In this document: piece by piece, positions 6,074 through 54,127 of the stretch
Layout of the letters: the number at the start of each line of letters is the position of its first letter
Numbering within the stretch: the first letter of the stretch is position 1
Assembly: GCF_001579845.1 (NCBI RefSeq)
Contig: NZ_CP007440.1
Coordinates: 6,098,029-6,162,028, forward strand
Reading direction: 5' to 3'
DNA length: 64,000 nt
DNA from: Rhodoplanes sp. Z2-YC6860
GTDB lineage: Bacteria; Pseudomonadota; Alphaproteobacteria; Rhizobiales; Xanthobacteraceae
Position numbers and translations under genes: made by a program
Notes under the pieces: model-generated
The model's input: the letters and a program-made list of their open reading frames with translations, nothing else
The model's database searches: none
Told to the model about the DNA's origin: nothing

Positions 6074-7498
6074 CTACCGCTGGCGAAAAGCCCGGTTGAA
6101 TGACATCGTCAAGGGCCCAACGACGTAGTCGAACGCAGTTCGCTGGACCGTCGGAATCATGACTGTCGCTGGCATCCCGGGGTAGAGCTTCGCATTGGGA
6201 ATGTCATGAAGTTCTTTCTCGTCGACCTCGATCAGCGCGACGTAATACGGATTGCCCGTACGCTGATCCGTCAGCCGGTCGGCAGAAACCTGCAGAACCT
6301 GCCCCTGCACGACGGGCGTGATGCGCTGCTTGTAGGCGGTGAGATGGACATCGGCACGCATCTGAGGCCGCACCTCGCTGATATCTTCGACAGCGATTTG
6401 TGCCTCGACAATCAGCATGTCCTCTTCGGGAACGACGTCTAGAATCTTGTCGCCCCGGTTGATGACCGCCCCGACCGAGAAAACGTTCAGCCCAACGACC
6501 TTTCCTGTGTAGGGCGACCGGATATCCACCCGACCAAGGACAGCCTGTGCGTTCGCACGACGAGGGATAACCTCGAGCAGTTTGGCTTGCGTATCCCGCA
6601 GGTCCTTCGAAACATCAGTCATCCGATCATTGTCGAGCTGCGCAATCTGCTGCATCTGTTCCGCGATCGCCTGTTTGAACTTTGCGATATTGGCGACCAT
6701 GTCGGCCGTTTGGCCTTCCAAAGAGACGCCGGACCTTTCCAGCTGCAGGAATCGAGGTCGCGCGATGAGACCTTTGTCCACAAGCGGAGTGATGCTCTCA
6801 AGTTCTCGCTGAACCGAATCGAACTGCGCCTTGTAGGCCTTAACCTGCGCCTCCGCTCCCACAATTTGCGATTCCAGTTGCGCGATCTTCTCCTGGATGA
6901 CCTTTCGTTGGCCTTCGACCGCGGCCAGCCGGCTTTCAAGCTGATGGATCTGAGCTCGCCATATGCTTTGAACGCCGGGATCGTCAGCCTTGTCTGCGAG
7001 ATCCGAGGGTAAATTCACTATCGTGCCGCGATTGTATTCAACCCTCAGGCGCTCCTCAGTGATGCGAAGGACGTAATATTGCTGGGTGAGAACTTCGTAC
7101 TCGGCACGAGCCTGGCTGTCATCGAGGACGATCACAATGTCGCCGGCTTTGACCTTGTCGCCTTCCTTGACCTTCAGCTGCTTAACAATCCCGCCGTCGA
7201 GGTGTTGCACGCTTTTTCGATTGCCCTCGACCTTCACCACCCCATTGGCAACAACCGCTCCGTTCAATGGCGCCGTGAACGACCACACTCCGAGAACGCC
7301 AAAAAAAAGACCAACGATGATCCAGCCGACGGTTGCGACGGACGCGATCGAATCTGACGGACCGCCCGTTCTCGCCCCCGCCTGAACATCGGTGGGCCGG
7401 TGGCGTTCGCTGAGCTGCGTCAGAAGCCGCATCGCGTTTTTGACCACCTCACGCGATTGCTTCGGATGAGGTGGCGATGGCTGTACGATTTCTTTCAT
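6074..7498 (-). CDS. HlyD-family type I secretion membrane-fusion protein (PrsE-like)
   Basis: 474 residues. A short cytoplasmic N-terminus and one membrane helix (~56-76) lead into a biotinyl-lipoyl-like half-motif (VKEGDKVKAGDIVIVLDD), a long coiled coil (~155-300), then the returning lipoyl half and beta-barrel domain (RSPYTGKVVGLNVFSVG). It would link the inner-membrane ABC exporter to a TolC-like outer-membrane channel for secretion of unfolded RTX proteins. It starts 6 bases after the exporter gene, so the two form an operon. No outer-membrane factor is encoded nearby, so an unlinked TolC is needed. The likely cargo is the RTX protease at 10.2-12.6 kb. Confidence 0.9.
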   Translation of the reverse strand: MKEIVQPSPPHPKQSREVVKNAMRLLTQLSERHRPTDVQAGARTGGPSDSIASVATVGWIIVGLFFGVLGVWSFTAPLNGAVVANGVVKVEGNRKSVQHLDGGIVKQLKVKEGDKVKAGDIVIVLDDSQARAEYEVLTQQYYVLRITEERLRVEYNRGTIVNLPSDLADKADDPGVQSIWRAQIHQLESRLAAVEGQRKVIQEKIAQLESQIVGAEAQVKAYKAQFDSVQRELESITPLVDKGLIARPRFLQLERSGVSLEGQTADMVANIAKFKQAIAEQMQQIAQLDNDRMTDVSKDLRDTQAKLLEVIPRRANAQAVLGRVDIRSPYTGKVVGLNVFSVGAVINRGDKILDVVPEEDMLIVEAQIAVEDISEVRPQMRADVHLTAYKQRITPVVQGQVLQVSADRLTDQRTGNPYYVALIEVDEKELHDIPNAKLYPGMPATVMIPTVQRTAFDYVVGPLTMSFNRAFRQR

Positions 7499-7504
7499 CG
7501 CCTG

Positions 7505-9220
7505 CTACCTCGCGGTGGCCTTGGCGGGCATGGTCTGCACGGTTCCCGGACGTGTGAGCCGCGCGATAATCTCATCACGGGATCCGAACATTTCTGCACT
7601 GCCGTCCTTCAGGACCAGAAGCTTGTCCGCCACGCCCAACGTATTCGGCCGATGGGAAATCATGACGACTGTCGTGCCGCGCTTCTTGAGTTCGGTAATG
7701 CAGCTCAGCAACGCCACGTCGCCATCGGAATCGAGGTTGGAGCTCGGCTCATCGAGCACGACGAGGCTGGGATTGCCGTAAGCCGCCCGTGCCAGTCCAA
7801 TCCGTTGCCTGTAGCCGCCCGACAGGATCGCGCCGTTTTCGCCGACAGGGGTTTCATAACCGCTAGGTAGACGGAGAACCATCTCGTGCACGCCGGCCAA
7901 TTGGGCGGCTTCAACGACCTCCTGGTCGTTATCGTTCCGAAACCGGCTGATATTCGAGGACACCGTGTCTGCGAACAACTCGATGTCTTGCGGCAAATAG
8001 CCGAGGTGCCGGCCTAGTGATTCCCTTGGCCACGGCGCAACATCCGCCCCATCGAGTCTGACCGCGCCCGACGTCGGCGACAGAATTCCAACGATTTGTC
8101 TCGCCAACGTCGATTTCCCGGCACCGGAGGGCCCAATGATCCCCAAGACCTCCCCAGGCTCTATCCTGAAATTCACATTGCGCAACACCGCGCGATTGGT
8201 ACCCGGAATCACATAAGTCAACGCCTCGACTGACAGACGTCCCAACGGCTTCGGCAAGGCCAGAGAAGCATCACGCAGCGGATTTGCCGCAAGCAGTTGC
8301 CGAACGCGATTATAAGCAGCACGCGCTGAGGTAAGGCCGCGCCACGAGCCGACCATCTGCTCAACGGGTGCCAAGGCCCTGCCAAGCAGGATTGAGGCGG
8401 CGAACATCGTGCCCGTGGTGGTCATTCGTTCAATGACGAGATACGCCCCGAGCGCCAGGATGAGAGACTGCATCGCCAACCGAAGGAAGCGAATCATGCT
8501 TGATGTGGTGGCCGCGCGGTCGCTTGCTTGGGTCTGCCGATCGAGCAGGAGATTGCGGTCTCTGCTCCAGCGATGCAGCAGTCCGGGCATCATGCCCATG
8601 GCCTGGACCACCTCTGCATTGCGCAGGCTCATGTCGGTGAAGCCGTAATTTCGGCTTGCGGCCTCATTCGCCTCGCTCAGCGGTCCTTTGACCAGATGTT
8701 CGTTCAGGAGCGCCATCAGCACCAGAATAATCGCGCAACCGAACGCAAATGCTCCGAGCCAGGGATGCAGAATGAAGATGACCCCGATGTAGATCGGCGC
8801 CCAAGGCAAGTCGAACAGCGCGTGGATGCCGCTGCCGGTGATGAACTGGCGGAAGGTGTCAAAGTCGCGAAGCGGCTGGCTGCGCGCTCCGACACCTTTC
8901 ACCGCGCTCTCAACAGTAGCGGTCACGATGCGGCCGGCGAGCAGCCGATCCAGGCGAATGCTCGCGCGCGTCAGAATGCGAGCGCGAATGGAATCGAGGC
9001 TTGTGAGGGCAACGAGCGCGACGAGCAGAAGGATCGTCAGCATGACCAGCGTGACTTGGCTCGCGCTGGAGATAACCCGATCGTAGACTTGCAACATGTA
9101 GAGAGGAGAAGACAGGTATAAAAGGTTGATAGCCAAGCTGAACAGCAGCGCTACCAGAAAGTAGCGGCGGCAAGCCAGGAATACGCCCTTCAATTCATCC
9201 GCTTTCGTCTTGGCTGGCAC
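7505..9220 (-). CDS. Type I secretion ABC transporter, permease-ATPase fusion (PrsD/PrtD-like)
   Basis: 571 residues. An N-terminal six-helix membrane domain (from ~20 to 300) is fused to an ATPase domain with Walker A GPSGAGKS (~360), the signature LSGGYRQ (~465), Walker B LVVLDEP and the switch HRP. Length and the opening FLVALLFSLAINLLYLSSPLYMLQVYDRV are typical of the PrtD/PrsD class, which lacks the C39-like domain. It powers ATP-driven export of proteins with C-terminal uncleaved signals across both membranes. It is the first gene of the exporter-adaptor operon and is divergent from the 9507 gene. Confidence 0.92.
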   Translation of the reverse strand: MPAKTKADELKGVFLACRRYFLVALLFSLAINLLYLSSPLYMLQVYDRVISSASQVTLVMLTILLLVALVALTSLDSIRARILTRASIRLDRLLAGRIVTATVESAVKGVGARSQPLRDFDTFRQFITGSGIHALFDLPWAPIYIGVIFILHPWLGAFAFGCAIILVLMALLNEHLVKGPLSEANEAASRNYGFTDMSLRNAEVVQAMGMMPGLLHRWSRDRNLLLDRQTQASDRAATTSSMIRFLRLAMQSLILALGAYLVIERMTTTGTMFAASILLGRALAPVEQMVGSWRGLTSARAAYNRVRQLLAANPLRDASLALPKPLGRLSVEALTYVIPGTNRAVLRNVNFRIEPGEVLGIIGPSGAGKSTLARQIVGILSPTSGAVRLDGADVAPWPRESLGRHLGYLPQDIELFADTVSSNISRFRNDNDQEVVEAAQLAGVHEMVLRLPSGYETPVGENGAILSGGYRQRIGLARAAYGNPSLVVLDEPSSNLDSDGDVALLSCITELKKRGTTVVMISHRPNTLGVADKLLVLKDGSAEMFGSRDEIIARLTRPGTVQTMPAKATAR

Positions 9221-9935: not shown

Positions 9936-10235
9936 GCGACCGGGTTTCTTCGCATCTAACAACACGTTTGTCGGATGTCGGTCTTGATCGCTAGTTGGAT
10001 GAAACGCTTGGCCTTTTGATCGTTTCTGATTCCACTCATTCGCTACATTTTTATTCAAAATCGTTCCGATATTACTTGCTGATTTGCGTGCCAACTAAGT
10101 TGTTCCAAAGTCATAATCCCAACTGCGCTCTGTATATTAGGACCTGTTAAAGCCAAGCCGTGGAAAACGTCGCCCATCGCGTGACAGCGATCAATCCGCC
10201 AAGCGGTCAACGCTTGGCAGGCAGGGGGCGACACC
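9936..10235. other. Intergenic region upstream of the RTX protease
   Basis: About 300 bases with no credible gene. It must carry the protease promoter. The ribosome-binding site GGGGGCG at about 10223-10230 precedes the ATG at 10236. I see no clear operator. Confidence 0.4.
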
Positions 10236-12623
10236 ATGCGCAAGCAGTTTGGCAACAGCGACCAGGATAGCTCTGGTAACGACGACTGGGGCTCCTCAGA
10301 TTGGGATATTTTGGGCTGGCTGAATCACGATCGCCAGTCGTCAGCGCACGTGGAGCTGGCACCTCCGCCTTCCATCGGCATCGCCACTGTCGACATTGGC
10401 TCCCCCGATTTCGGACCGGATGGCGCCGCGGCGAAGAAGGGCGGCGGAGGCTCGTCAGGCACGGGCGTGAGCCCGCCTCCGCCCCCACCGCCGCCTTCTC
10501 CCCCGCCGCCGCCTCCTCCGCCGCCGCCGATCAATTCCGTGACGTCGACTTCCACGTCAGCGACCGTTGTGTGGCACACACTGAGCCCGCCGTCGGGTGA
10601 TGCAAGTTTGCCAACCGACACGCTTTTCTCGAAAGAGTGGAATCTGAGCAGCAGCACCTACGGGATCAATGTCGCCAAAGCCTGGCAGAACTATACCGGC
10701 GAGGGGATCAAGGCCGGCATCATCGACGACGGTTTCGACTACAATCACCCTGATCTCGCGCCGAACTACCGGCTGGATCTCGACTATGACACCAGAACCG
10801 GCAGCAATGACGCTTACGGTACATCGACCGACACTCACGGCACGACCGTCGCCGGCGTGCTGGGCGCGGCACGCGACGGCAGCGGCATCGTGGGAGTGGC
10901 CTACAACGCCGAAATGGCCGGCTTTCGCATTGGCTACGGCGCCAATGGCACACCTGCGCAAATCGCAGACGCCTTCAAGCACGTTCTGTCCAGCGGCATG
11001 GATGTAGTCAACGCAAGCTGGGGCTATTCTACGGCGTATTCAGACAACTACGATCTGTCTTCGTACTCCGCTGCAAAAGCCGCGATCCTGAACGACGTCG
11101 CCACCGGGCGCGGGGGCCTCGGTATCGATATCGTCTTCGCTGCCGGCAATGGCCGCGCATCGGGCGATAACACCAATTATCATAGCTTCCAGAACGACCC
11201 CAACGTGATCGTCGTCGCCGCGACTGGCAGCCTCGGCTACGTCGCATCCTACAGCAATCCGGGCGCCTCGGTGTTTGTGTCTGCGCCGGGAGGATCTTCC
11301 ATCCAAACTGACGACCGGTTGGGAAGCGCCGGCTATTCTGCAACCGACTACGCGGTGATGTCCGGCACATCCTACGCCGCGCCGGAAGTTTCCGGCGTGA
11401 TTGCATTGATGTTGCAGGCCAACCCCACCCTTGGATATCGCGATGTTCAAGAAATCCTTGCGCTCACCTCCAAGCAGATTGATCCCACCAACGTGAGCTG
11501 GGAAATCAATGGCGCACATGATTTCAACGGTGGCGGTTTGCACTTCAGCGAGGACTATGGGTTTGGAATGGTGGATGCCACCGCGGCAACGCGGCTGGCC
11601 GAGAGCTGGCAGTTGCAATCGACTTACGCCAACATGGCCACCGTGACGGCGACCCATACTGACAATTTGAAAATCCCGGACGGGGTCGGCAGCCTGCAGA
11701 GCCATATTGCGATCAGCAACTCAATGGAGATCGATAAGCTCGTTGTCGATCTCAATATCACCGACACGGCACCGAGTGACTTGCTTGTGACATTGACGTC
11801 GCCGTTCGGCACGACAGCAACGCTGGTCAACCATCCCACGAACGGTACCGGCACCGGTATTGTGTTCGAAACCTCGGCCAATAATTTCTGGGGCGAAAAC
11901 ACACAAGGCAACTGGACGTTGACCGTCACTGACACCGTTACAGGCAACATCGGGACGTTGAATGGCTGGACGCTGAAAGCGCTCGGCGATGCTGCGGACA
12001 CACCCAATGTTTACGTCTATACGGACGAGTTTTCGAAACTTCTGAGTGCCGACCGCGCGATTCTGCACGATACCACCGGAGCGGCCACCATCAACACCGC
12101 AGCCGTCACGACTGATTCCTACATCGACCTCACTCCCGGCGCGCTCGATACCATTGCCGGCCGATCGTTGCAGATCGGCCTCGATACCACGATCAAAAAC
12201 GTGTGGACCGGCGACGGCAACGACACCATCATTGCGAATAACGCCGGAGACACTATCCAAGGTGGGCGCGGCAACGACACCATCGTGGCGGGCTCGGGCG
12301 GCGACAAACTGTATGGCGGCCCAGGCAACGACACCTTCGTGTTCAAGGCACCCGGCCAGGTCACCGATGTCATCGCTGACTTCGTTAAAGGCCAGGATAT
12401 CCTTGATCTGCATGCTCTGATGACCGCGATTGGCTACACCGGAACGAACGCTGTTGCGGACGGCTGGGTCAAGTTGGTAGCCGACGCCAATGGCGGTGGA
12501 ACAAACTTCGTGGTCGACGCCCATAACGGGCAGACCCCGACAACGGTCGTCGACGTGTTGGGTGTTGCGCCGACCAGCTTGACCCAAGGAGTCGACTACT
12601 GGCTGACGTCACACACCGCCTAG
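10236..12623 (+). CDS. Secreted RTX subtilisin-like serine protease with P-domain
   Basis: 795 residues, no Sec signal peptide. The order is an acidic N-terminal region (1-75); a proline tract with almost 20 Pro (80-99); an S8 peptidase domain (~145-450) with D165 (IIDDG), H202 (THGT), N306 (AAGNG) and S380 (SGTSYAAP) as triad and oxyanion residues; a proprotein-convertase P-domain (~455-580); and RTX nonapeptides GDGNDT, GGRGNDT and GGPGNDT (~660-700) followed by a C-terminal T1SS signal region. The RTX block binds Ca2+ outside the cell and folds the protein after export. The divergent PrsDE-like exporter is the likely secretion route. It ends overlapping the convergent 12620 gene by 4 bases. 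Target substrates are unknown. Confidence 0.93.
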   Translation: MRKQFGNSDQDSSGNDDWGSSDWDILGWLNHDRQSSAHVELAPPPSIGIATVDIGSPDFGPDGAAAKKGGGGSSGTGVSPPPPPPPPSPPPPPPPPPPINSVTSTSTSATVVWHTLSPPSGDASLPTDTLFSKEWNLSSSTYGINVAKAWQNYTGEGIKAGIIDDGFDYNHPDLAPNYRLDLDYDTRTGSNDAYGTSTDTHGTTVAGVLGAARDGSGIVGVAYNAEMAGFRIGYGANGTPAQIADAFKHVLSSGMDVVNASWGYSTAYSDNYDLSSYSAAKAAILNDVATGRGGLGIDIVFAAGNGRASGDNTNYHSFQNDPNVIVVAATGSLGYVASYSNPGASVFVSAPGGSSIQTDDRLGSAGYSATDYAVMSGTSYAAPEVSGVIALMLQANPTLGYRDVQEILALTSKQIDPTNVSWEINGAHDFNGGGLHFSEDYGFGMVDATAATRLAESWQLQSTYANMATVTATHTDNLKIPDGVGSLQSHIAISNSMEIDKLVVDLNITDTAPSDLLVTLTSPFGTTATLVNHPTNGTGTGIVFETSANNFWGENTQGNWTLTVTDTVTGNIGTLNGWTLKALGDAADTPNVYVYTDEFSKLLSADRAILHDTTGAATINTAAVTTDSYIDLTPGALDTIAGRSLQIGLDTTIKNVWTGDGNDTIIANNAGDTIQGGRGNDTIVAGSGGDKLYGGPGNDTFVFKAPGQVTDVIADFVKGQDILDLHALMTAIGYTGTNAVADGWVKLVADANGGGTNFVVDAHNGQTPTTVVDVLGVAPTSLTQGVDYWLTSHTA

Positions 12624-43966: not shown

Positions 43967-45796
43967 TCAAGCCGCAACCGCTGACGGCATTGCTCGAGCA
44001 GTAGCGCCAGGCCGCTTCTCGAACAGACGATGGACTTCGGACGCCCAGCCGCGCAGACCTCGCGCTGACGGTTCAGACTGACTGGAAATCCATGCCCTCA
44101 CAGGAGTGGTGAAACCAGTCTTGGCACGATTGACGATCGATGGCGACAACTTCCGAGCACATGCTGCAAGATCACGCTTATCGGGTGGTGTGTTCGAAGA
44201 GATGGCGGGTCCTACACGCCGCAACAGATGTGTATCGACAAACGGCACCCTGACTTCCAAACCATGCGCCATGCTCGACCAGTCGGTGTCGCGCAGCAAC
44301 TGATTGCGCATGTACCAGCAAGACTCCAGTGCAGCGATTTGCGCATGCTGACTGACGCCGGCTCTACGGAGAGGATCGATCGATGCATTAATTGCCGCGA
44401 TGCTCGACAGCCTCTGTAAACCTTCACTCAGCCAGCTTTCATCGAGCAACGCGTCCAATTCGCCCTCGACATGCAAGGCACGCCGCAAGAGATAGGCGTT
44501 TGCAACGCCCTTTGAATGCGACAGTAGCCCGGCAGCTTTGGGTGGAATGCCCGGCAGCGGTAGCTTTGAAAGCCACTTCTCGACGACACGCCCGAAAGAA
44601 TCTGAAGCCGGAATCCTCCGCCCCCACTTCAGCAACGCAGGAATTTGGCTGAACGACGGGTAGCCACCAAAGAGCTCGTCACCACCAAGGCCGGAAAGTG
44701 CCACTTTCAGTCCCTGCTTCGCCGTCGCATGGCTGATCAGGTAGGTGTTAAGCCCATCGATCGTCGGCTGGTCCATGCTGGCGAGAAAATCATCGAGCAT
44801 CCCATAGAATTCGTCACGGCCGATCCGAACCGTCGTGTGCTCGCTGCGCAGATCCTTTGCAGCCAACTCCGCGAGCACAGCCTCGTCGTTCGCGGTGCCT
44901 GCATATTCTGAAAACGCCAGAGTGACGGTGCGAAGCTGCGTTCCGAGTTCGGCGGCCAATGCCGCAATCACATTGGAGTCGATGCCGGCTGACAGAAAGA
45001 TTCCGACCGGCACGTCCGCCACCAGATGGTGATGGACCGAATCGAGCAGGAGCTGGCGAAGCTCGCCTTGCTGCAGCGGCTGAACTGGATGCGCAATGAA
45101 GAGGTCCTCGATCTGCTGGAATGACCGAGGCGATGCGGCTCCCTGATCGACTGCAATCCTTTGCACGCGACCAGGAGGAAACATTTCAATTCCGGACCAC
45201 CATGAAAATGGCTCCGGCACGTGTCCCCACAGATAGAAGCCAACCAACGCGGCAGCGTCACGTTTGGCATCGGGCAGCACAACATTCGCAAGCGCGCGCG
45301 CCGAAGACGCAAACCATACTGCACCACGATGATGCGCGACGTAGAGCGGCTTGATCCCGTATGAATCGCGGGCGAGCCACAACTCGCGTGCTTTGCTGTC
45401 CCACAGCGCCAGCGCAAACATTCCGCGAAGCTTCGGAAATGCAGCCTCACCCCACGCGCTGACTGCATTGATGATGACTTCAGTGTCGCTGTTGGTACGA
45501 AACTCCAACCCCAAGCGCTGTAATTCGCTTCGCAACTCGCGGTAATTGTAGATTTCGCCGTTGAAGCTGATGCGCCAGCGTCCACTGGCATCCGACATCG
45601 GCTGCGCGCCACTTGCGCCAACATCGATGATGGCGAGACGCCGATGCGCCAGCGCTATCCGCTTGTCCTCCGCCACCCACAGACCCGCGCCGTCGGGGCC
45701 TCGGCGCCACTGCCGGTCGCTCAGACGGACAACGGTGTCCTGATCAATGGCAGCGGCATTCCAGTCAACTCTAACCGCGCCTGCAATTCCGCACAT
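43967..45796 (-). CDS. asnB: Glutamine-hydrolysing asparagine synthetase family protein
   Basis: 609 residues. The N-terminal Ntn glutaminase starts at the catalytic Cys2 (MCGIAGAV), with RRGPDGAG and SFNGEIYNYRELR. The synthetase domain has the PP-loop FLSAGIDS (~250) and SGLGGDELFGGYPSF. Enzymes of this kind in polysaccharide loci often amidate uronic acids or otherwise transfer NH3 instead of making free Asn; which applies here is unknown. All catalytic residues look intact, unlike the lasso cyclase at 48-50 kb. It is the first gene of the leftward export operon after a 594-base gap. Confidence 0.88.
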   Translation of the reverse strand: MCGIAGAVRVDWNAAAIDQDTVVRLSDRQWRRGPDGAGLWVAEDKRIALAHRRLAIIDVGASGAQPMSDASGRWRISFNGEIYNYRELRSELQRLGLEFRTNSDTEVIINAVSAWGEAAFPKLRGMFALALWDSKARELWLARDSYGIKPLYVAHHRGAVWFASSARALANVVLPDAKRDAAALVGFYLWGHVPEPFSWWSGIEMFPPGRVQRIAVDQGAASPRSFQQIEDLFIAHPVQPLQQGELRQLLLDSVHHHLVADVPVGIFLSAGIDSNVIAALAAELGTQLRTVTLAFSEYAGTANDEAVLAELAAKDLRSEHTTVRIGRDEFYGMLDDFLASMDQPTIDGLNTYLISHATAKQGLKVALSGLGGDELFGGYPSFSQIPALLKWGRRIPASDSFGRVVEKWLSKLPLPGIPPKAAGLLSHSKGVANAYLLRRALHVEGELDALLDESWLSEGLQRLSSIAAINASIDPLRRAGVSQHAQIAALESCWYMRNQLLRDTDWSSMAHGLEVRVPFVDTHLLRRVGPAISSNTPPDKRDLAACARKLSPSIVNRAKTGFTTPVRAWISSQSEPSARGLRGWASEVHRLFEKRPGATARAMPSAVAA

Positions 45797-46390: not shown

Positions 46391-47485
46391 CTACGATCGC
46401 TGCCAAATCCGAAGCGTGTTCCGATCATGCGAACCTGTTACATGAATGTTCTGGCCGGCCGCGCATTCGAGCGAATGCTCAAACGGATAAAACAGCGCAC
46501 CTAAAGACGAAGTACTCTGCGCCGGAGGAACGCTTTCATATGTTGCATGATCGTCGAGCTCCAACGATATCCATTGAGCAACTCCATTGGCTCGACCGCC
46601 GCGTGATGCCAATTCGGCCTCTGATCGGGCCTCGGGGAACGGCCCTCCAGATTCGAAATCGAAACGAAAAAGATCTATTGGATCGCCGCATAATCTCAGA
46701 GACTCTTTTTCGTCGTGAATCCTGTAACAGGGATACGCCAGCATTCTGAAGGCCGAGAGGTCAAAGCCTTCGATAGCATCCATCTCGGCATAGGAATGAA
46801 GGTGCTCCGCGAGAGCCACGCGAATGCTCCCTCGCGCGGGAATCACCTGGGTGTCAGGTCCTGCAAAATGGCGAACCGCGTGTTCAACGGTCGCAAGCGC
46901 GCCCGCACCTACGAGCGTCCTCGACAGATTGTCCCACAAGATAAGATCTGGGCGATCTACAAAATCAGATCCGATTTTCAAATCGAATGACGGCTTCGCC
47001 AAAACGCGAATTCGCTCGCCGAAGCCATTTTGCGCCACGACCGCTGCAACAGCCTTGGCCACAACGGGATTGCTCTCGCATGTGATGACCTCGGCAGCAC
47101 CGGCGCGGGCAGCCATTAAAGCAAACAGGCCTGTTCCAGAGCCGATATCCAGGACTCGACAGCCCGGCCGGATCGCGCGGCGAAGCGCGCCCTCGTACAA
47201 CTGATGGCGGGCAGTGTCTCGAACCAGAGACGCGTAATAATTCGGGACTTCCTGACTCAACACTTCTGCGACGAGCACGCGAACCTCAGCCTCGCCTGGC
47301 GCAAGAGATATCGCGTGGGTGCACAGCTGTCTGGCAATCTCCTTCTCGCCTTTCGCCGACAGCGTCACGGCCATGCGGGCCATAAGGACCGGCTTATCCC
47401 GGGTCAACTGAATCAGGCTTGCCAGTTCCCCACTAACGCGCGCGGCTGGGTTTGCACTTCCGTCTGTCTTCTCAATGTCTGCCAA
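46391..47485 (-). CDS. PRMT-like SAM methyltransferase with N-terminal helical (TPR-like) region, RiPP tailoring candidate
   Basis: 364 residues. Residues ~15-80 are paired helices (ELASLIQLTRDKPVLMARMA, IARQLCTHAISLAPGEAEVR) like a TPR. The segment NYYASLVRDTARHQLYEGAL matches the PRMT YY-x2-M-x-D-x2-R-x3-Y motif, and motif I is VLDIGSGTGLFALMAARAGA (~111-130). The segment that in PRMTs carries the double-Glu loop reads LILWDNLSRTLVGAG here, so the two Glu that hold the substrate Arg seem absent. The start lies 16 bases after the B2 stop, which ties it to the RiPP operon. It may methylate the core peptide at a residue other than Arg, since the core has none. Substrate is inference. Confidence 0.75.
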   Translation of the reverse strand: MADIEKTDGSANPAARVSGELASLIQLTRDKPVLMARMAVTLSAKGEKEIARQLCTHAISLAPGEAEVRVLVAEVLSQEVPNYYASLVRDTARHQLYEGALRRAIRPGCRVLDIGSGTGLFALMAARAGAAEVITCESNPVVAKAVAAVVAQNGFGERIRVLAKPSFDLKIGSDFVDRPDLILWDNLSRTLVGAGALATVEHAVRHFAGPDTQVIPARGSIRVALAEHLHSYAEMDAIEGFDLSAFRMLAYPCYRIHDEKESLRLCGDPIDLFRFDFESGGPFPEARSEAELASRGGRANGVAQWISLELDDHATYESVPPAQSTSSLGALFYPFEHSLECAAGQNIHVTGSHDRNTLRIWQRS

Positions 47486-47501
47486 GCTTCATTTCTCCAG
47501 A

Positions 47502-47948
47502 TCAGCCATCGACAACCCGTCGCGGAAACGAAGCGAGCACCGAGAATTGCGCTGCATTTTCGCAACCAATCACGTCTTGGTGTCCAGCGCGTACCCAGAC
47601 ATGCGCGGACAATCCGGACTGATCCTGAGCAACTCCGTAGTAAAGTGTGGAGGCTATCCCGCGCCTTCGCAGCATGCATTGAGCGGTCAGACCTTGCTCG
47701 AAACAAAGAGTGCGCCATGGGGCTCTTCGAGAAGCGGCAACGATCGCCCACCGAACTTGTTTGAGCCGGAGCCGCGTAACGCTGACTGATAGTGACGATT
47801 GCCGTACAGGTCGAGCAGCCAAATCTGCCGCCTTACGAAACGGCAATACCGCGATCACAAATCGAGTTGCGGCCAAAAAAATGAAAGCTTCGAGAAAAAC
47901 TGGGAAATCTCGCCAAGGCAACCGCCACAGCCTTCGAACATCGCGCAT
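47502..47948 (-). CDS. Lasso peptide B2 protein (transglutaminase-like leader peptidase)
   Basis: 148 residues from the ATG at 47948, which has GAGGTCG about 6 bases upstream; the frame extends another 31 codons without support. A hydrophobic N-terminal helix (WRDFPVFLEAFIFLAATRFV, continuing to AVLPFR) precedes the cysteine-protease core. The catalytic Cys is in LCFEQGLTAQCMLRRRGI and the His in SGLSAHVWVRAG; this is the layout of the McjB C-terminal half. In split lasso systems B2 cuts the leader from the core, guided by B1. It is third in the operon after A, B1 and C. Confidence 0.88.
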   Translation of the reverse strand: MRDVRRLWRLPWRDFPVFLEAFIFLAATRFVIAVLPFRKAADLAARPVRQSSLSVSVTRLRLKQVRWAIVAASRRAPWRTLCFEQGLTAQCMLRRRGIASTLYYGVAQDQSGLSAHVWVRAGHQDVIGCENAAQFSVLASFPRRVVDG

Positions 47949-48064
47949 CGTAGCGACCTCGGTATATCGACGGGATTTCCGAAACCGGCGGCTGACCACC
48001 GACAAAAGAGCTGACGATGCCGATTTCATGCGCGCGCTCACAGGCTCTCAAAGTATACCCAACC

Positions 48065-50002
48065 TCAGCGATTACTTCCGGTGGTTCGGCGCAAGAAGTG
48101 TCCGGCTGAAATTCCACGCAACAGCGCATAACGGTAAGGCATGATGACGTCATCACGACCCCAGCCGTCGGTAGGCCACTCTTCGATCAACTGACGCAGC
48201 CGTGCTAAGTCAACAGTTTTGCTGGCTGTGGGAGACGCCTTCAGACGATCGATTTCGGCTGCAACATCTTGCCGGGCGGCAGTGAGGTCTTCATGCCAGT
48301 CCGCCGCTATTAGCCCCTTACGCGGTTCATCGAGCACCACTCGCGGAAGACGATCAGCAAGGGCGTGGAGTGCCAACGCCCTTTGTTTACCGTCGCGAAG
48401 AAACTGCTCGGTCGGCACCGACAGGCAAAACTCAAGCAATCTCACATCGGCCGTAGGATCGCGGGTATCAACATGCCAGCCCCCCAAGGTCGCTTTATTA
48501 TAATTTCCAGGATCGGCCCGCTGTATTACCCAGGTCCGCATCGCAACCCCGCTCTTCCACGGACGATAGACAATATCTAAATTTTTTGCCTTTGCGCGAG
48601 CCGGAAGATCAAGCTCGAGCAGACGCTTCTGATTGATCGCAGCGTAGTCTTGAACCTCGTAAGCATGCCCGGTGGCCAGCTTGTTGAGCTGAACCCAAAG
48701 CTTCGGGGGACACCACGGGCCAAGCGTATTTGCGAGAATACCTCGCCAACGCATTCTACCGGCAGAAACCAGGGCATTCGCTTCTTTCCATAAGCGTAAC
48801 CATCGTCCGCCTCTCAGCAATTCAGGCAGCAATTCGAGCCCGTTGTAACTCAACCCCATGTTGCCGAGATTGCCGTTCAAGCAGACCTTGATGTTCCGGC
48901 CATTGACGGCGTTGTTAAAACTGTGGGCCCACGCCGTACCGCATATGTTGAGCATAGGCCGATCGAGAAGATTGAAGAAGCGATCGAGATCGGCGAGCGG
49001 AGAGCGGCCTTCATTAGGCACGAGAATATGCTCGATATTCGGGTAAAGCGCCGCCGTCGCGGCAGCGAGACGACCTTCATCGACAATGCGGTTTCGTGGC
49101 GTCGGACCGTCGTAGCCCGCGCGGGGAACTCCCGTGAAAGCCAGGAGCTTGCGACCCGACGGCGCGAGCAGCCGCGCTGCCGTGGCTGCCACCGCTCCAC
49201 TATCCAAGCCGCCGCTTAGGAAAACCCCCAGATTGCCTGTGCCCCGTAACCGGCATTTTACCGCCTCATCCAACCGTTGACGCAACGCTTCGGCGTATTC
49301 CGCCGGTCCGGAAAGCTTGATGTGGGAATGTTTGGGCTGCCAGTGTCGTCGGGATTTTATCGAAGTGGCCGTGACAATCGATAAGTGACCAGGCTCTACG
49401 CGTTCGACGCCGCGAAAGAAACTTTGGGTGCCAGTTTCTGGTATCAACGCAAGGAATTCTGCGACGCGCTCCTCATCAGGCGCGTAAGGCACGTCCGGCA
49501 GCGCATGCAACCCCTTCGGCATGCTGGCGAACGCAAAGAATTTGTCGCCGCGGTGATAATGGAGCGGACGCTGCCCGGTCGGATCGCGCGCCAGGAACAA
49601 CTGTCGATTTGAGACATCCCAGAAAGCGAAGGCGTAATCGCCGACAATATGTTCGACACAGGCCTCGCCCCAGCGTTCAATAACCGCCAACAGGATGGCA
49701 GCGTCGCACAGATCTCGAGCATGCGGAGCGGGTATCTGTAATTCCTCAGCTAGCTCATCTCTGTTATCCAACCGCACATCGGCGACAAGAACATATCTTC
49801 CCTGACCACCGACAAGCGGTTGCCGGTCAAACACATCCTCAGGAAGAGTGCGCATCAATCGGCGACCGAGCGCTACGTCGCCCCTGGACCATTGTCCGCC
49901 GTGATCTGGTCCATAAAGCTCTTGCGCCCGCAACATTCGGGCGCAGCCGTCGGCGGCATCGGGGCGACGATCAAAGCGCCACAAACCCGCAAGCGCCGTC
50001 AT
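48065..50002 (-). CDS. Lasso-type macrolactam synthetase (asparagine-synthetase-like C protein)
   Basis: 645 residues. The N-terminal glutaminase-like domain starts MTALAGLWRF, so the nucleophilic Cys2 of true AsnB is missing and no ammonia would be made. The synthetase domain keeps the ATP pyrophosphatase loop FLSGGLDSGAVAA with SGGLDS at 263-268. Such McjC-like enzymes adenylate a core Asp/Glu side chain and let the core N-terminus attack it to close the ring. The start codon overlaps the B1 stop (ATGA), and the precursor lies just upstream, so assignment to RiPP cyclisation is strong; the product topology is unproven. Confidence 0.9.
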   Translation of the reverse strand: MTALAGLWRFDRRPDAADGCARMLRAQELYGPDHGGQWSRGDVALGRRLMRTLPEDVFDRQPLVGGQGRYVLVADVRLDNRDELAEELQIPAPHARDLCDAAILLAVIERWGEACVEHIVGDYAFAFWDVSNRQLFLARDPTGQRPLHYHRGDKFFAFASMPKGLHALPDVPYAPDEERVAEFLALIPETGTQSFFRGVERVEPGHLSIVTATSIKSRRHWQPKHSHIKLSGPAEYAEALRQRLDEAVKCRLRGTGNLGVFLSGGLDSGAVAATAARLLAPSGRKLLAFTGVPRAGYDGPTPRNRIVDEGRLAAATAALYPNIEHILVPNEGRSPLADLDRFFNLLDRPMLNICGTAWAHSFNNAVNGRNIKVCLNGNLGNMGLSYNGLELLPELLRGGRWLRLWKEANALVSAGRMRWRGILANTLGPWCPPKLWVQLNKLATGHAYEVQDYAAINQKRLLELDLPARAKAKNLDIVYRPWKSGVAMRTWVIQRADPGNYNKATLGGWHVDTRDPTADVRLLEFCLSVPTEQFLRDGKQRALALHALADRLPRVVLDEPRKGLIAADWHEDLTAARQDVAAEIDRLKASPTASKTVDLARLRQLIEEWPTDGWGRDDVIMPYRYALLRGISAGHFLRRTTGSNR

Positions 50003-50298
50003 TTCGCTTCAGAGGTCTTGATCATTCCCTCGGCGCGAAGCTCTTCCAGCAAGTCGAGAACCTGGGAACCGCAAGTGTCGGAATCAACCTGATACTCATC
50101 AACAAGGATTGCACAAACGTCAGCGACGCGGGTCGGCGTGGATAGCAATTGCCATATTCGAGAACCAACGCGGTTCAGGCCGTAACAGGTGCCCCGTTCG
50201 ATACTGAGGGCCACAATTTCCTGGTTAACTTCAGCCTCAACGAAACCGTCGTGTCGCCCAACGAATGTATCCAGTGTGATGCGATCTGACTTGGCCAC
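49999..50298 (-). CDS. PqqD-like RiPP recognition element (lasso B1 protein)
   Basis: About 99 residues from the GTG at 50298, chosen for the purine-rich AAGAAGAG just upstream; a TTG at 50343 would add 15 residues but lacks a ribosome-binding site. The winged-helix PqqD fold is recognisable from EIVALSIERGTCYGLNRVGS, then RIWQLLSTPTRVADVCAILV and the closing LLEELRAEGMI. B1 binds the leader (here the W-x2-P-x-L motif) and presents the precursor to B2 and C. It lies between precursor and cyclase and overlaps the cyclase start by 4 bases. Confidence 0.88.
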   Translation of the reverse strand: MAKSDRITLDTFVGRHDGFVEAEVNQEIVALSIERGTCYGLNRVGSRIWQLLSTPTRVADVCAILVDEYQVDSDTCGSQVLDLLEELRAEGMIKTSEAK

Positions 50299-50365
50299 GG
50301 CTCTTCTTTGCACCTCGTCCTTGGCAGGATCAAACAGGTGCAATGTCCGTTATGCAAAGATCTTG

Positions 50366-50539
50366 TTAGGAGTGGTTACCACCCGGCCCGCATCCCCCGC
50401 CGGCTCCGTCGTTGCATGGGGCGCCGCCATTCTGAGCCTCGTTTGCTGCAAGTCGACGTAAGGCCGGACGCTCCCATAAGGAGCGACTATCCCGATTTTC
50501 ATGAGACACGGCGAGCTTGCGCTCAGAATTTTCAATCAT
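50366..50539 (-). CDS. Lasso-type RiPP precursor peptide (57 residues)
   Basis: ATG at 50537-50539, TAA at 50366-50368, directly upstream of B1 on the same strand; GGGTG lies about 5 bases before the ATG. The leader has the recognition motif SLWERPALRRLAANEA (W22, P25, L27), the usual aromatic-x2-P-x-L signal bound by B1. The Gly-rich rest is QNGGAPCNDGAGGGC followed by GPGGNHS. If cleavage is before G38, the core is 20 residues with D44 at position 7 (a 7-residue ring is known from xanthomonins), Cys at core positions 5 and 13, and Ser at the C-terminus. The usual leader Thr at -2 is absent (Gln) and bulky plug residues are few. Cleavage site and topology are inference. Confidence 0.8.
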   Translation of the reverse strand: MIENSERKLAVSHENRDSRSLWERPALRRLAANEAQNGGAPCNDGAGGGCGPGGNHS

Positions 50540-50735
50540 CTAAACACCCGAAATTTTCTCCCGCATCCATCTATATAATCGCTTGCAATTTGGAATTTCG
50601 CAAGTGATTAAAAAAATCACATTTCTTTCAATCGGTTACAGGAAGTCCTCGAGAGACAATCCCGTTTTGAAGCAGCCCGAGGCGTTCCGACCCGTTAGGA
50701 CATCCTACCAATCAACCGTGTAGAAATTTGAGCGA
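50540..50735. promoter_or_regulatory. Divergent RiPP promoter region with two inverted repeats
   Basis: The region between the leftward precursor operon and the rightward kinase/nucleotidyltransferase pair is AT-rich. It contains GTGATT-N5-AATCAC (50604-50620) and, beside it, CTTGC-N13-GCAAG (50582-50604). A TATATA-rich stretch at about 50570-50579 lies where the -10 box of the precursor promoter would be. No regulator is encoded in the cluster. Confidence 0.45.
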
Positions 50736-51674
50736 ATGAAAGCGCCAATCGGACCAATGTCGTATGTTTTAGCGGGATTACGGGTGTCGTCCGAACTTGA
50801 GATCCCCAATCTTGCGTCTGCGCCAATTCACGCAACCCGCCGGCCAGACGTTTGCATTCGACGCGCGGCAGTACAGCGGTCGCTCGACGCAGCTGATCCG
50901 ACAGCCTCGCTCGAGTGGGAGTACGACGGCAACGAGTTTTTGCTCAATATCTCGAACGTGGCCCGTTTTCTGATCACACCGGACGAGATCGTTGTCGACG
51001 AGGCCCCGCAGAGCGATCCGGGCGACGTCTCTGCGTATCTTCTCGGCACTGTTTTTGGCGTTTTATGTCACCGGCGCGGAATCACCCCCCTCCACGCCTG
51101 CTCAATCGAGACTGCCAATGGTTGCGTGGCATTCGTCGGCCCTTCTGGAGCCGGAAAATCGACATTGGCCTCCGTTCTTGCCGCTCGAAACCACAACGTG
51201 ATTGCTGATGATGTCTGTTTCCTGAGTGTTGTCGAAGGCGGCCAGATTCATTGCTGGCCGGGCGTAAACCGGCTTCGCCTCTGGGAAGACGCCATGAAGT
51301 CTCTTGGGCGAGATCCCGAAACCGCCGAGCGAGAATTTCGCGGATACAACAAATACCTTGTGCCTCTCGGCTCGCCAAAACGTCCCGAAGTACCGCGCCG
51401 GCTTCGCGCCGTTTATCAGCTCGAGCCAGCCACCGAGAAGGAAGAGCAGAGCGCGATTCTTCGCTTGAGCGGCTCCGTTGCTTTCGAAGCCGTCATGCAA
51501 AATATCTACCGACTGAATATTGCGGAGCTGATGGGCTTGAAACCCAATCTGTTCAAGGTCGGATCCACGATCGCAAATCACGTTCCGATATTTCAATTCC
51601 GCAGGCCGATGAACTATGGTGCGCTGTCAAGTGCAATCGATGTGTTGGAAGACCATCTGCGTCAACATGGCTGA
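50736..51674 (+). CDS. HPr-kinase-like protein, probable RiPP kinase
   Basis: 312 residues. An N-terminal region of ~115 residues with no clear match is followed by an HprK/P-like domain: ITPLHACSIETANGCVAFVG, then Walker A GPSGAGKS at 135-142 and VIADDVCFL at 155-163. Length and layout agree with HPr-kinase-like proteins of lasso clusters such as the paeninodin kinase, which phosphorylates the C-terminal Ser of its precursor. Here the precursor also ends in Ser. It is divergent from the precursor and heads a two-gene unit. Another role, such as a structural ATPase, is possible. Confidence 0.78.
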   Translation: MKAPIGPMSYVLAGLRVSSELEIPNLASAPIHATRRPDVCIRRAAVQRSLDAADPTASLEWEYDGNEFLLNISNVARFLITPDEIVVDEAPQSDPGDVSAYLLGTVFGVLCHRRGITPLHACSIETANGCVAFVGPSGAGKSTLASVLAARNHNVIADDVCFLSVVEGGQIHCWPGVNRLRLWEDAMKSLGRDPETAEREFRGYNKYLVPLGSPKRPEVPRRLRAVYQLEPATEKEEQSAILRLSGSVAFEAVMQNIYRLNIAELMGLKPNLFKVGSTIANHVPIFQFRRPMNYGALSSAIDVLEDHLRQHG

Positions 51675-51731
51675 CAGTGTTGTCGGGCCGCCCATGGCGC
51701 TGTTTTTGCGGTTCTCATTGGATGACATGCC

Positions 51732-52922
51732 TTGGCAATAAAGCCTTCAGCAGAGCTCCTGCTCACCGCGGCTTGCTCGATCTGGCCGCCATCTGAAAGC
51801 CGCTCCCAGGCGATACATCAAGCCGCACAGGCGTCACTGGATTGGAACCACTTCCTTCGTGTTGTCGCGCGTCACCGGGTGACCGGGCTCGTAAGAGAGG
51901 CTCTTTCAAATTCACTGTTTGTGGCACCCGAAAATGTTGTAGCGGAGATCAATTCTCGCGCCACAAGGCTGGTCCGTGACAACCTCGCTCTCGCTGCAGA
52001 AGCAATAAGACTGCAGCAACAGTTTTCAAGCGCTGGCTTGCCGGCGCTGTTCATCAAGGGCTCCTCACTCGCCATCCAGGCTTACGCCAACCTTGGTCTT
52101 CGAGAGAGCAAGGATCTCGATCTTTTCGTCCCGCCAGACCTCTTGCAAGACGCAATAAAGCTGCTGGAGAGTTCTGGATATTCCCGCGTTGATCCTCCTG
52201 CATCGGCCAGTGATGCGCAAATGCAGCTCTTGCTGCGGCTACGAAAAGATCTGATGTACTTCAACAGTGCGCGAGAGATTTACATCGAGCTGCATTGGCG
52301 GCTGCTTTCCAACCCTTACTTTATGGATGAAAGCAGCCTCATGGCCTCTTCGCGCGTGGTGCCGATCACCGGCACGAACGCATTGCGCACCCTCGGTCGC
52401 GAGGATCTGTTTGCATACTTGTGTGCACACGGCGCGCAGCACTGGTGGTACCAGCTAAAGTGGCTGGCGGACGTCGGCGCTCTGCTTGCGGCTGACCTCG
52501 ACTCCGCAGAGCATCTATACAGGTCGGCCGAACGCAAAGGGGTCGGCCAGGCAGCCGCTCAAGCGATTTTGCTTTGCGAGCGATTGCTGCGAACACCTGT
52601 GCCGGGGGACTTGACGGCGTTTTTGCGCAAACGTCCATGGATGGGATGGTTGGAAGCGACTGCGCTTCACGCAATAACGGCGGGGTATGGCGCTCTTGAG
52701 CCACGCCAAATTCCACTCGGCACGACGCGTGGCAGTCTATCTTGTTTCCTTCTCGGCAGAACGTGGCGCTATCGACTTGCAGAACTGCGCATCCATCTTG
52801 TTTCTGAAGGCGATATCTTGACGCTCCCGCTACCTCAGAAGCTTGGATTTTTGTATCCGCTGTTGAGACTGCCGCTCTGGGTGTGGCGCCAGGTGATGCG
52901 GCAAAGAGGCTCATCTCGTTGA
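51732..52922 (+). CDS. NTP_transf_5-family nucleotidyltransferase-like protein, RiPP-associated
   Basis: 396 residues from a TTG at 51732 (no better start seen), 57 bases after the kinase gene. The N-terminal helical part contains HRVTGLVREALSN, the core has LFIKGSSLAIQAYANLGLRE then SKDLDLFV, i.e. K-G-(S/A)-S with a D-x-D metal pair, as in PF14907. Next come IELHWRLLSNPYFM and the long C-terminal helical region. These proteins occur beside HPr-kinase-like genes in lasso clusters and are assumed to transfer a nucleotide or extend phosphate groups on the peptide; no activity is settled. It may act on the phosphorylated C-terminus. Confidence 0.78.
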   Translation: MAIKPSAELLLTAACSIWPPSESRSQAIHQAAQASLDWNHFLRVVARHRVTGLVREALSNSLFVAPENVVAEINSRATRLVRDNLALAAEAIRLQQQFSSAGLPALFIKGSSLAIQAYANLGLRESKDLDLFVPPDLLQDAIKLLESSGYSRVDPPASASDAQMQLLLRLRKDLMYFNSAREIYIELHWRLLSNPYFMDESSLMASSRVVPITGTNALRTLGREDLFAYLCAHGAQHWWYQLKWLADVGALLAADLDSAEHLYRSAERKGVGQAAAQAILLCERLLRTPVPGDLTAFLRKRPWMGWLEATALHAITAGYGALEPRQIPLGTTRGSLSCFLLGRTWRYRLAELRIHLVSEGDILTLPLPQKLGFLYPLLRLPLWVWRQVMRQRGSSR

Positions 52923-53018
52923 AGCCTAACGCCAGCTTCTCATCGCGCCCCGCGGCAGTTGGCTAAAAGCGTGATGGCATTTGGCTGAATCGGTTCTGGA
53001 TTCCCCAATTAGCTTGTA

Positions 53019-53520
53019 TGGATCAAGCAGCAGGACCACGTTGATCCTTCCCGCCTGATCTTCATCGACGAGACCCGGATCAGGACCACTCGGGCACCGC
53101 TGTGCGGTCGGACCTCGCGTGGCAACAGCCTGATCGCCAGGGTTCCAGCCGACCGCCGGAAGACCATGGCCGTGCTGGTCGAGCTACGCCACGACCGAAT
53201 CACAGCACCCTGGCTGCTCGAAGCCCCAATCGATGGCGAAAGCTTCACCACCCGCTCCCCACGTTGCGGCACGACGACATCGTCATCATGGACAAGCTCG
53301 CAGCCGCCCGGACAGGATCATAGCCAGCTCATCCGCTCGACCGGTGCCAAGCTGCCTGTTGCCAAAATACTCGCCAGACCGCAGCCCGATCGAACAGGTA
53401 TTTGCCAAGCGTCTGTTGCCCAGGGCATCGGGCGAACCATCGAAACCGCGCGCGCCGCCATCCGCGAGCTTGTCGCCGCTTTCATCATCATTCATGTGCA
53501 AACTACTTCATAATTACATC
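53019..53520 (+). pseudogene. Decayed IS630-family transposase
   Basis: A DDE transposase of IS630 type in at least three broken frames. Frame 1 gives WIKQQDHVDPSRLIFIDETR, then RRKTMAVLVELRHDRITAPW. A shifted frame gives TLRHDDIVIMDKLAAARTGS and a stop, and another gives PKYSPDRSPIEQVFAK. The Asp in FIDET, the Asp in IVIMD and the Glu in SPIEQ are the catalytic triad, so the ancestor was complete. Start, terminal repeats and a target duplication are not visible. It sits on the boundary between the RiPP cluster and the exopolysaccharide locus. Confidence 0.8.
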
Positions 53521-53911
53521 TTATGGATTCGAACGGATTTTTCCCAAGCACTAGCTGCGTGGAGCCATGGGGCGAATCGTCGAAACCGCCTGCACCGCCG
53601 GCTTCTCGCGGCCTCATCAACATTAATACGTGAACTGCTTCATAAACCCAGATTATGAAATCGAACGGGCTTTTGCCCAAGCATCAGCTGCGCGAGGGCA
53701 ATCGGACAAATCGTCGAAGCCGCTGCCCGCTGAGCTTCTCGCGGCCTTCATCAACATTAATGTGTCAACTGCTTCATAAACCCAGATTATGAAGTCGAAT
53801 GGGTTTTTACCCAAACATCAGCTGCGCGACGCCCCCCCACCTGTGCCGCTGAGTTTCTCGCGGCTTTCATCAACATTAACGCGCCAACTATTTCATAAAT
53901 CCGGGTTATGA
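53501..53911 (+). repeat. Degenerate direct repeats of the IS630 transposase 3' end
   Basis: The sequence AACTGCTTCATAAACCCAGA, continuing TTATGAA, recurs in varying form at about 53501, 53633, 53767 and 53886, spaced 132, 134 and 119 bases. Between them the segment GCTTCTCGCGGCCTTCATCA, continuing ACATTAA, also recurs. Translated, each unit ends like an IS630 transposase C-terminus (NYFINPGY-type). The array therefore consists of repeated copies of the transposase tail and right end, not of unrelated satellite DNA. Confidence 0.7.
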
Positions 53912-54127
53912 AAATGCGTGTCGAAAATTCCATTTAGTAATTCTCATCCGTATTCGTACTAACCAGTTCATACTTAATCGCTTATTCCATAGCGCTCCAA
54001 TTGTCCGTAAAAGCGAGCCAAATTATAAGCAAGCTGTAAACACGTTGACGGACTGCAGAGCACGTGTGTTGCGCTGCCCGAATCCAACGGAGATGCAGAC
54101 TTTTTCTTTGGTGAGATTGCGCCGCTT

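Follow-up and report, generated by a model that had tools for sequence, protein, structure and literature searches.

A likely paeninodin-type lasso-peptide cluster in a Xanthobacteraceae genome, with a PRMT-like methyltransferase gene closing its operon

Paeninodin-type lasso peptides are made by a recurring set of genes. The clusters of paeninodin (kinase PadeK), ThcoA and SyanA from Sphingobium yanoikuyae share a W-type leader, split B1 and B2 proteins, a cyclase, an HprK-like kinase and a C-terminal Ser (PMC9266682), and the Trp of the WxxP motif is nearly invariant in paeninodin-like leaders (PMC13381572). In characterised systems the kinase acts on the terminal Ser with the aid of B1, the leader is cut by B1 and B2, and the ring is closed by C (PMC9266682, PMC10368454). 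For PadeK the target is the precursor's C-terminal Ser; hexoses appear when PsmN is present, with a role of a host enzyme not excluded, and the terminal Ser of pseudomycoidin carries phosphate and hexoses (PMC9266682). An arrangement A B1 B2 C K D in proteobacteria was already on record in 2016 (PMC5067487). Here we describe a locus of Rhodoplanes sp. Z2-YC6860, an alphaproteobacterium of the Xanthobacteraceae, within a 64,000-nucleotide stretch of its genome (NZ_CP007440.1, positions 6,098,029 to 6,162,028; hereafter the window). We consider it likely that this locus is a paeninodin-type lasso-peptide cluster working by the steps proposed below.

The precursor gene A is followed on the minus strand by B1, C, B2 and a methyltransferase gene (MT); 22 nt separate A from B1, B1 shares 4 nt with C, and the gaps before B2 and MT measure 23 and 16 nt. 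K and N diverge from this operon on the plus strand (Table 1). A precursor, an RRE and leader peptidase, and an asparagine-synthetase-like cyclase thus co-occur, together with the split B1/B2, HprK-like kinase, C-terminal Ser and WxxP leader of the paeninodin type; the kinase scores below its model's cut-off and keeps the residues named for lasso kinases. From the paeninodin, ThcoA and SyanA clusters the locus differs by an Ala at leader position -2, a probable Asn at core residue 1, a cysteine pair, the MT gene, and the lack of a recognised exporter beside the operon. It shares a kinase and an NTP_transf_5-type gene with the pseudomycoidin cluster (PsmK, PsmN), although the cores are unrelated and the function of N is predicted. 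The cluster of BsfA from Bradymonas sediminis has the same A, B1, B2, C, K and N set and a non-Thr residue at -2 (PMC10368454), but there the residue is Ile, the leader reads YxxPxL and the kinase target is Ser3, whereas the window has Ala(-2), WxxPxL and Ser21 as its single candidate. Metanodin, reported as the first proven case of Asn as the ring-forming residue 1 (PMC12670498), differs in its Thr(-2), gammaproteobacterial origin and core.

The original prediction had read this locus as a paeninodin-like lasso cluster with a possibly modified product, on the strength of a 57-residue open reading frame (ORF) with a W-x2-P-x-L motif, a leftward operon holding a PqqD-like B1, a synthetase lacking Cys2 and a McjB-like protease, and divergent HPr-kinase-like and NTP_transf_5 genes. 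The ATG-initiated ORF is where it was placed, model matches and tight spacing bear out the operon, the two divergent genes are present, and gene content and leader type agree with the cluster assignment. The details needed correction, in that leader position -2 is Ala rather than Thr, residue 1 of the core is most likely Asn, and the MT gene that closes the operon had been left uninterpreted although it lies inside the span considered, 46391-52922.

Identification of the 57-residue ORF as the precursor rests on its relatives. Relatives of C were collected from named genomes, with family genomes added; at least 77 loci were kept, and small ORFs were searched in them. Twenty precursors were picked by the WxxP motif, some of them also by an acid in a four-residue span, and a profile built from these with the window sequence left out ranks the 57-residue ORF first among 879 window ORFs (E=1.4e-8; runner-up E=1.4). 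The training rows carry Asp or Glu at +8 in 19 of 20 cases, and at +9 in L092. A profile of 15 leader columns alone was then used, which lessens the effect of this selection. It retrieved 40 distinct ORFs, 38 of them scoring at least 6: the 20 training rows, the window and 17 others. Of these 38, 27 carry an acid at +8, nine at +9 and nine at +10; each position from +1 to +7 has an acid in two or three rows, +11 in none and +12 in a single one. The C-terminal residue is Ser in 36 and Thr in 2. A pattern composed after the relatives' precursors were known (W..P, Ala/Thr/Ser/Ile/Val at -2, Asp/Glu at +8, C-terminal Ser/Thr) matches one stop-to-stop frame in the window, against a mean of 0.06 in 50 block-shuffled windows.

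Conservation of the ORF in relatives, which the original prediction had named as its test, is seen: loci of related cyclases hold a small counterpart ORF with WxxP, the +8 acid and a C-terminal Ser. Its expectation that the gene would escape calls with usual length cut-offs was overstated, as the limit of common gene finders is roughly 30 residues; the precursor instead stands out by having no match at E<=0.1 to any model of Pfam or NCBIfam. A search of the genus found hits at E<=0.01 in 2 of 11 genomes, one being the window itself and the other a 186-residue frame (E=0.0065) that we take for a chance match and rejected as a precursor.

To place the core within this ORF we turned to the closest cyclases. 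Among the matches listed, the nearest relatives of C are 46-55% identical to it, and the smallest well-supported clade that includes the window cyclase has 17 rows (support 100/98), in 16 of which precursors were found. If the Trp of WxxP starts the count, the window precursor has Ala as residue 14 and L094 has Thr (WTTPTVFVSALSGTK/NGIDAYEDGGAYTNYDS, the slash marking the leader-core junction). Oleisolibacter albus (L106) encodes two precursors in one locus (10055-10219 and 11532-11696) with near-identical leaders and different cores; their junctions read ..ETR/AGGPGTID.. and ..ETQ/NGSSGAFD.., so that the Asn of one aligns with Ala1 of the other. The L094 Thr aligned on the window Ala, taken with this Asn/Ala1 pair, sets the window core as NGGAPCNDGAGGGCGPGGNHS, whose Asp falls at +8, and residue 1 is, judging from these alignments, most likely Asn. 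Counted from the cleavage site placed in this way, Asp8 provides an acid within 7-9 residues. Of the 16 clade precursors, 14 have an acid at +8 and that of L092 has one at +9, while in L095 the first acid comes at +11; in nine of the 14 rows with a +8 acid, residue 1 falls outside Gly, Ala, Ser and Cys (N, V, T, N, D, D, L, T, N).

Two readings compete with this account of the precursor. Were the 57-residue ORF not the precursor, its lack of a match to any family model would be understandable, and the position of A does vary among relatives, lying far from C in L105 and L109, for instance; against this stand the profile and pattern tests, the location of the ORF directly before B1 and the absence of any other precursor-like ORF among the 879 of the window, and we find the idea very hard to credit. 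It is improbable, though less extremely so, that cleavage occurs one residue later, giving the core GGAPCNDGAGGGCGPGGNHS and a seven-residue Gly1-Asp7 ring. Gly is the commonest residue 1 of lasso peptides and seven-residue rings exist in the xanthomonins, both of which speak for the shifted register, but the aligned relatives place their acid at +8 from the start that we prefer, Thr(-2) of L094 falls on the window Ala, and Ala1 and Asn1 of L106 share one place. We retain the 57-residue ORF as precursor, with Asn1 as the favored start of its core.

Leader position -2 and the RRE both vary within this clade. Among its 16 precursors, position -2 is Ala in 13 (the window and 12 others), Thr in L109 and L094, and Ser in L090. 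In B1, the sequence GTCYGL replaces the GTYFGL of TbiB1 and the GEYWQL of TfuB1, a change from Tyr to Cys at the G-x-Y site, and of 12 readable RREs in the clade nine have Cys and three Tyr (L092, L094, L095). Tyr33 of the FusE RRE is suspected to contact Thr(-2) (PMC10368454), and the G-x-Y Tyr of B1 proteins presumably corresponds to it. Tallied as residue -2/RRE residue, the raw counts were T/Y 26, A/Y 13, A/C 8, T/C 1, S/Y 3, A/I 1 and S/A 1; after removal by hand of duplicates (L094, L111, L112, L128, L135), the spurious L163, the mis-set A of L159 and L172 (Thr there) and the Ser rows, they were T/Y 20, T/C 1, A/Y 11, A/C 8 and A/I 1. A strict coupling of Ala(-2) with the Tyr-to-Cys change was rejected. 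Ala(-2) also occurs outside the window's clade, in an Ancylobacter-type clade whose RREs keep Tyr; the RRE Cys tracks the window's clade rather than Ala(-2) as such. Leaders without Thr(-2) are in print, with Ile and Val exceptions proven or predicted (PMC10368454), and the same paper credits Kretsch et al. 2023 with predicting precursors that have Ala(-2).

The remaining core enzymes keep much of what their roles would call for. C begins MTALAG, as against MCGIAG in a full asparagine synthase of the window (43967-45796). B2 scores 80.4 bits against NF033537 (cut-off 33) and, aligned with relatives, retains the Cys and His of the conserved motifs. K, aligned with 13 relatives, keeps the His, GPSGAGKS (GxxGxGKS) and Asp-Asp residues named for lasso kinases (PMC9266682, PMC10368454). 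The earliest possible start of B1 is a TTG at 50343, and a later start is possible; used as a query against genome contigs, B1 found no relative. In the loci of the 16 clade relatives we count K in 14, B1 in 12, B2 in 8, N in 3 and MT in none, counts that contig ends and divergence limit.

Table 1. Predicted parts of the lasso-peptide cluster, in window coordinates
Feature	Position	Strand	Basis
Precursor gene A, 57 aa, ATG start	50366..50539 including stop codon	-	ORF and leave-out profile
Leader, residues 1-36; WERPAL (residues 22-27) at 50459-50476; ends Ala(-2)-Gln(-1)	50432..50539	-	alignment with relatives; putative cleavage site
Core NGGAPCNDGAGGGCGPGGNHS, residues 37-57: Asn1, Cys6, Asp8, Cys14, Ser21	50369..50431	-	register from L094 and L106; putative ring and disulfide
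B1, PqqD-like RRE	49999..50343	-	Pfam PqqD E=8.3e-19; TbiB1 1.8e-10
C, asparagine-synthetase-like lasso cyclase without Cys2	48065..50002	-	NF033535 2.3e-98, below cut-off
B2, transglutaminase-like leader peptidase	47502..48041	-	NF033537 above cut-off; Transglut_core3
MT, PRMT7/9-like methyltransferase, 364 aa, 16 nt past B2	46391..47485	-	PRMT7 2.6e-25
K, HprK-like kinase	50736..51674	+	Hpr_kinase_C 4.3e-5, below cut-off
N, NTP_transf_5 protein	51732..52922	+	Pfam NTP_transf_5 1.5e-51

By analogy with characterised systems, B1 would bind the WERPAL leader and K would phosphorylate the C-terminal Ser21, the one hydroxyl residue of a core with one Ser and no Thr, while the peptide is still part of the precursor. 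B2, guided by B1, would cleave past Ala(-2)-Gln(-1), C would adenylate Asp8 and join it to the amino group of Asn1 to form an eight-residue ring, and N may decorate the phosphate with a hexose. Since the tail consists almost wholly of Gly and offers no bulky plug, we infer that a disulfide between Cys6 and Cys14 and a decorated Ser21 would act as the lock that holds it. Of the two cysteines one falls within the putative ring and the other within the tail, as in class III, to which BI-32169 belongs (class definition in PMC13352647); among the 16 clade precursors the window is alone in having Cys in its core.

The solved structure nearest to MT by sequence is PRMT7 (2.6e-25), a protein arginine methyltransferase (PRMT), and MT accordingly has a PRMT-type S-adenosylmethionine-binding domain; another chain, which we take to be PRMT9, also covers part of the N-terminal region. 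In PRMTs, the two glutamates of the double-E loop bind arginine. MT reads LWDNLSRTLVGAGAL in this loop, where homologs have sequences like VSEIISDALIGEGML: the first Glu, present in all of 40 aligned homologs (11 from the family and 29 from the class), is Asp in MT, and the second, Glu in 36 of the 40 and Gln or Pro in the rest, is Ala. MT thus lacks both glutamates that define the loop in PRMT7, PRMT9 and their kin, and its predicted substrate core has no Arg, which together make an arginine reaction on the core improbable. MT, encoded by the last gene of the operon, would instead add a methyl group to some non-Arg site of the peptide, the candidates being Asn, His20, a Cys or the C-terminal carboxylate. 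Homologs of MT occur in 13 of 296 family genomes at E<=1e-15 and in 46 of 385 class genomes at E<=1e-30, the window being counted in both. At 11 family and 29 class loci (class flanks of 1.5 kb, some contigs being short), no window-like lasso gene was found near them, and with no MT in the 16 clade loci either, MT was not seen as a regular component of lasso clusters. In the near-identical L115 and L117, an MT with both glutamates lies about 5 kb from a lasso C.

We link MT to the peptide because of its 16-nt spacing and its changed loop, yet the chances that it is a passenger gene and that it is a tailoring enzyme seem to us about even. MT is absent from the clade loci, lasso genes like those of the window are absent from the 40 MT loci, and the polysaccharide region around the cluster holds other methyltransferases, all as a passenger would predict; its strand, its position directly past B2 and the 594-nt gap that follows are less expected of a passenger, and a double-E loop unlike that of all 40 homologs fits a changed substrate, or decay. 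A cyclised product that is not threaded, whether a branched-cyclic or a disulfide-bicyclic phosphopeptide, is unlikely in our view, though it deserves more weight than a shifted register. The Gly-rich, plugless tail of the window core would suit it, as would several relatives with 4-6 residues past the acid (for example AGGGGNTEGTGTS), which is short for a threaded tail. The window cyclase nevertheless groups by sequence with lasso cyclases, and in class III a disulfide can substitute for plugs (PMC13352647), so a threaded product is the form that we propose. Predicted cores of 13-14 residues with 5-6 residues past the acid and an adjacent kinase gene occur in the Ancylobacter-type loci L046, L050, L051, L053, L054, L056, L059 and L060, and threading of such short tails is doubtful.

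Several observations weigh against the assignment of the cluster or against individual steps. The score of C against NF033535 (330.5 bits) falls short of the cut-off of 525, as does that of K against Hpr_kinase_C (23.5 bits, cut-off 33.3), and neither exporter nor isopeptidase was recognised adjoining the operon. No precursor was found in clade row L102, and the first acid of L095 lies well past +8. Outside the training rows and the window, the acid stands at +8 in just 7 of 17 leader-profile ORFs, the training filter having included the acid; of the ten others, six come from Bacillota and carry their acid at +9 or +10. The usual Thr(-2) is replaced by Ala in the window, and in one characterised Ile(-2) system Ala at this position abolished cleavage, as did Thr (PMC10368454). 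Neither the cysteine pair nor MT is conserved in relatives, and with so much Gly and nothing bulky in it the tail could slip from the ring.

The cluster sits within a polysaccharide region (22511-64000) of an 8.19-Mb genome that is assembled in one contig. This region encodes ABC transporter components (Wzt/Wzm-like, with one weak Wzt_C match), a carbamoyltransferase, an FkbM-type methyltransferase, Wzz/ATPase and Wzy_C proteins and a sugar transferase (Bac_transf). The asparagine synthase with Cys2 that lies 594 nt past MT (TIGR01536 above cut-off) probably belongs to it rather than to the peptide pathway. Paeninodin-like clusters with a kinase and an NTP transferase also lie inside capsule loci of Bacilli (PMC13381572), but the window shows neither a recognisable signal-peptidase gene nor a second RRE. 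Of 84 loci of relatives, a set that includes duplicates, 14 hold a homolog of any of 21 window proteins from the polysaccharide region, 8 of the 14 through the ABC ATPase query, as against none of 11 MT loci used as a control; a polysaccharide locus is thus not the rule for clusters of this group in these data. From the surroundings one might guess that the product is either released or bound to the cell surface together with the polysaccharide. The cyclase itself is sparsely distributed: in genome samples taken evenly from larger groups, and with the window included, it occurs in 29 of 296 family genomes at E<=1e-60, in 1 of 397 genomes of the order at E<=1e-110 (the window alone) and in 7 of 385 genomes of the class at E<=1e-95.

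Further observations concern the window and the loci of its relatives. Between N and the sugar-transferase gene (53016-53960), a 134-bp tandem repeat of 2.8 copies (53462-53829) lies past a broken stretch that seems to resemble an IS630-type transposase. Promoter and terminator scans returned sites more rarely than in shuffled sequence. In L172 (G706:C13), a small ORF fitting the precursor pattern ends VDCCLGS, with two neighbouring Cys. On plasmid pTM3 of Tistrella mobilis (L069/L098) a 46% identical C is present, and in the flanks examined around it no A, B1, B2 or K could be recognised. A relative of C on plasmid p1 of Azospirillum sp. TSH100 (L070, 4788-8932) is accompanied by a PqqD protein, an annotated aspartyl/asparaginyl beta-hydroxylase and a WbaP gene, with an annotated lasso B2 about 5 kb from it and three annotated tail fiber proteins nearby. 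In L034, two frames at 6734-7854, past the lasso C gene, seem to resemble phage tail-collar or microcystin-dependent proteins.

The kind of cluster, leaders without Thr(-2), Asn1 and the capsule-locus setting are all already in print. In the literature covered, which did not extend to Kretsch et al. 2023, we found no Ala(-2) with a varied residue 1 across such a clade; in mainly open literature we found no lasso cysteine pair together with a kinase target, nor a PRMT-like methyltransferase partner of a lasso peptide, little of the search having been aimed at the last. The most far-reaching picture, in which a PRMT fold with both Arg-binding glutamates replaced was recruited for a phosphorylated, Asn1-closed and disulfide-locked lasso in a clade that largely lacks Thr(-2) and a small residue 1 and often has the Tyr-to-Cys change in its RRE, is one that we put forward tentatively, as a possibility.

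Because no model of Pfam or NCBIfam recognises the window precursor, others like it may go unnoticed. If MT does act on the peptide, it would represent a tailoring step absent from the portions of PMC9266682 and PMC13352647 covered here, and would put the PRMT fold to a new use. The clade forms a natural series on how RRE and peptidase read a position -2 other than Thr. It also informs the choice of residue 1 by the cyclase, with N, D, V, L and T predicted here beside the Gly, Ala, Ser, Cys and one proven Asn of the literature covered.

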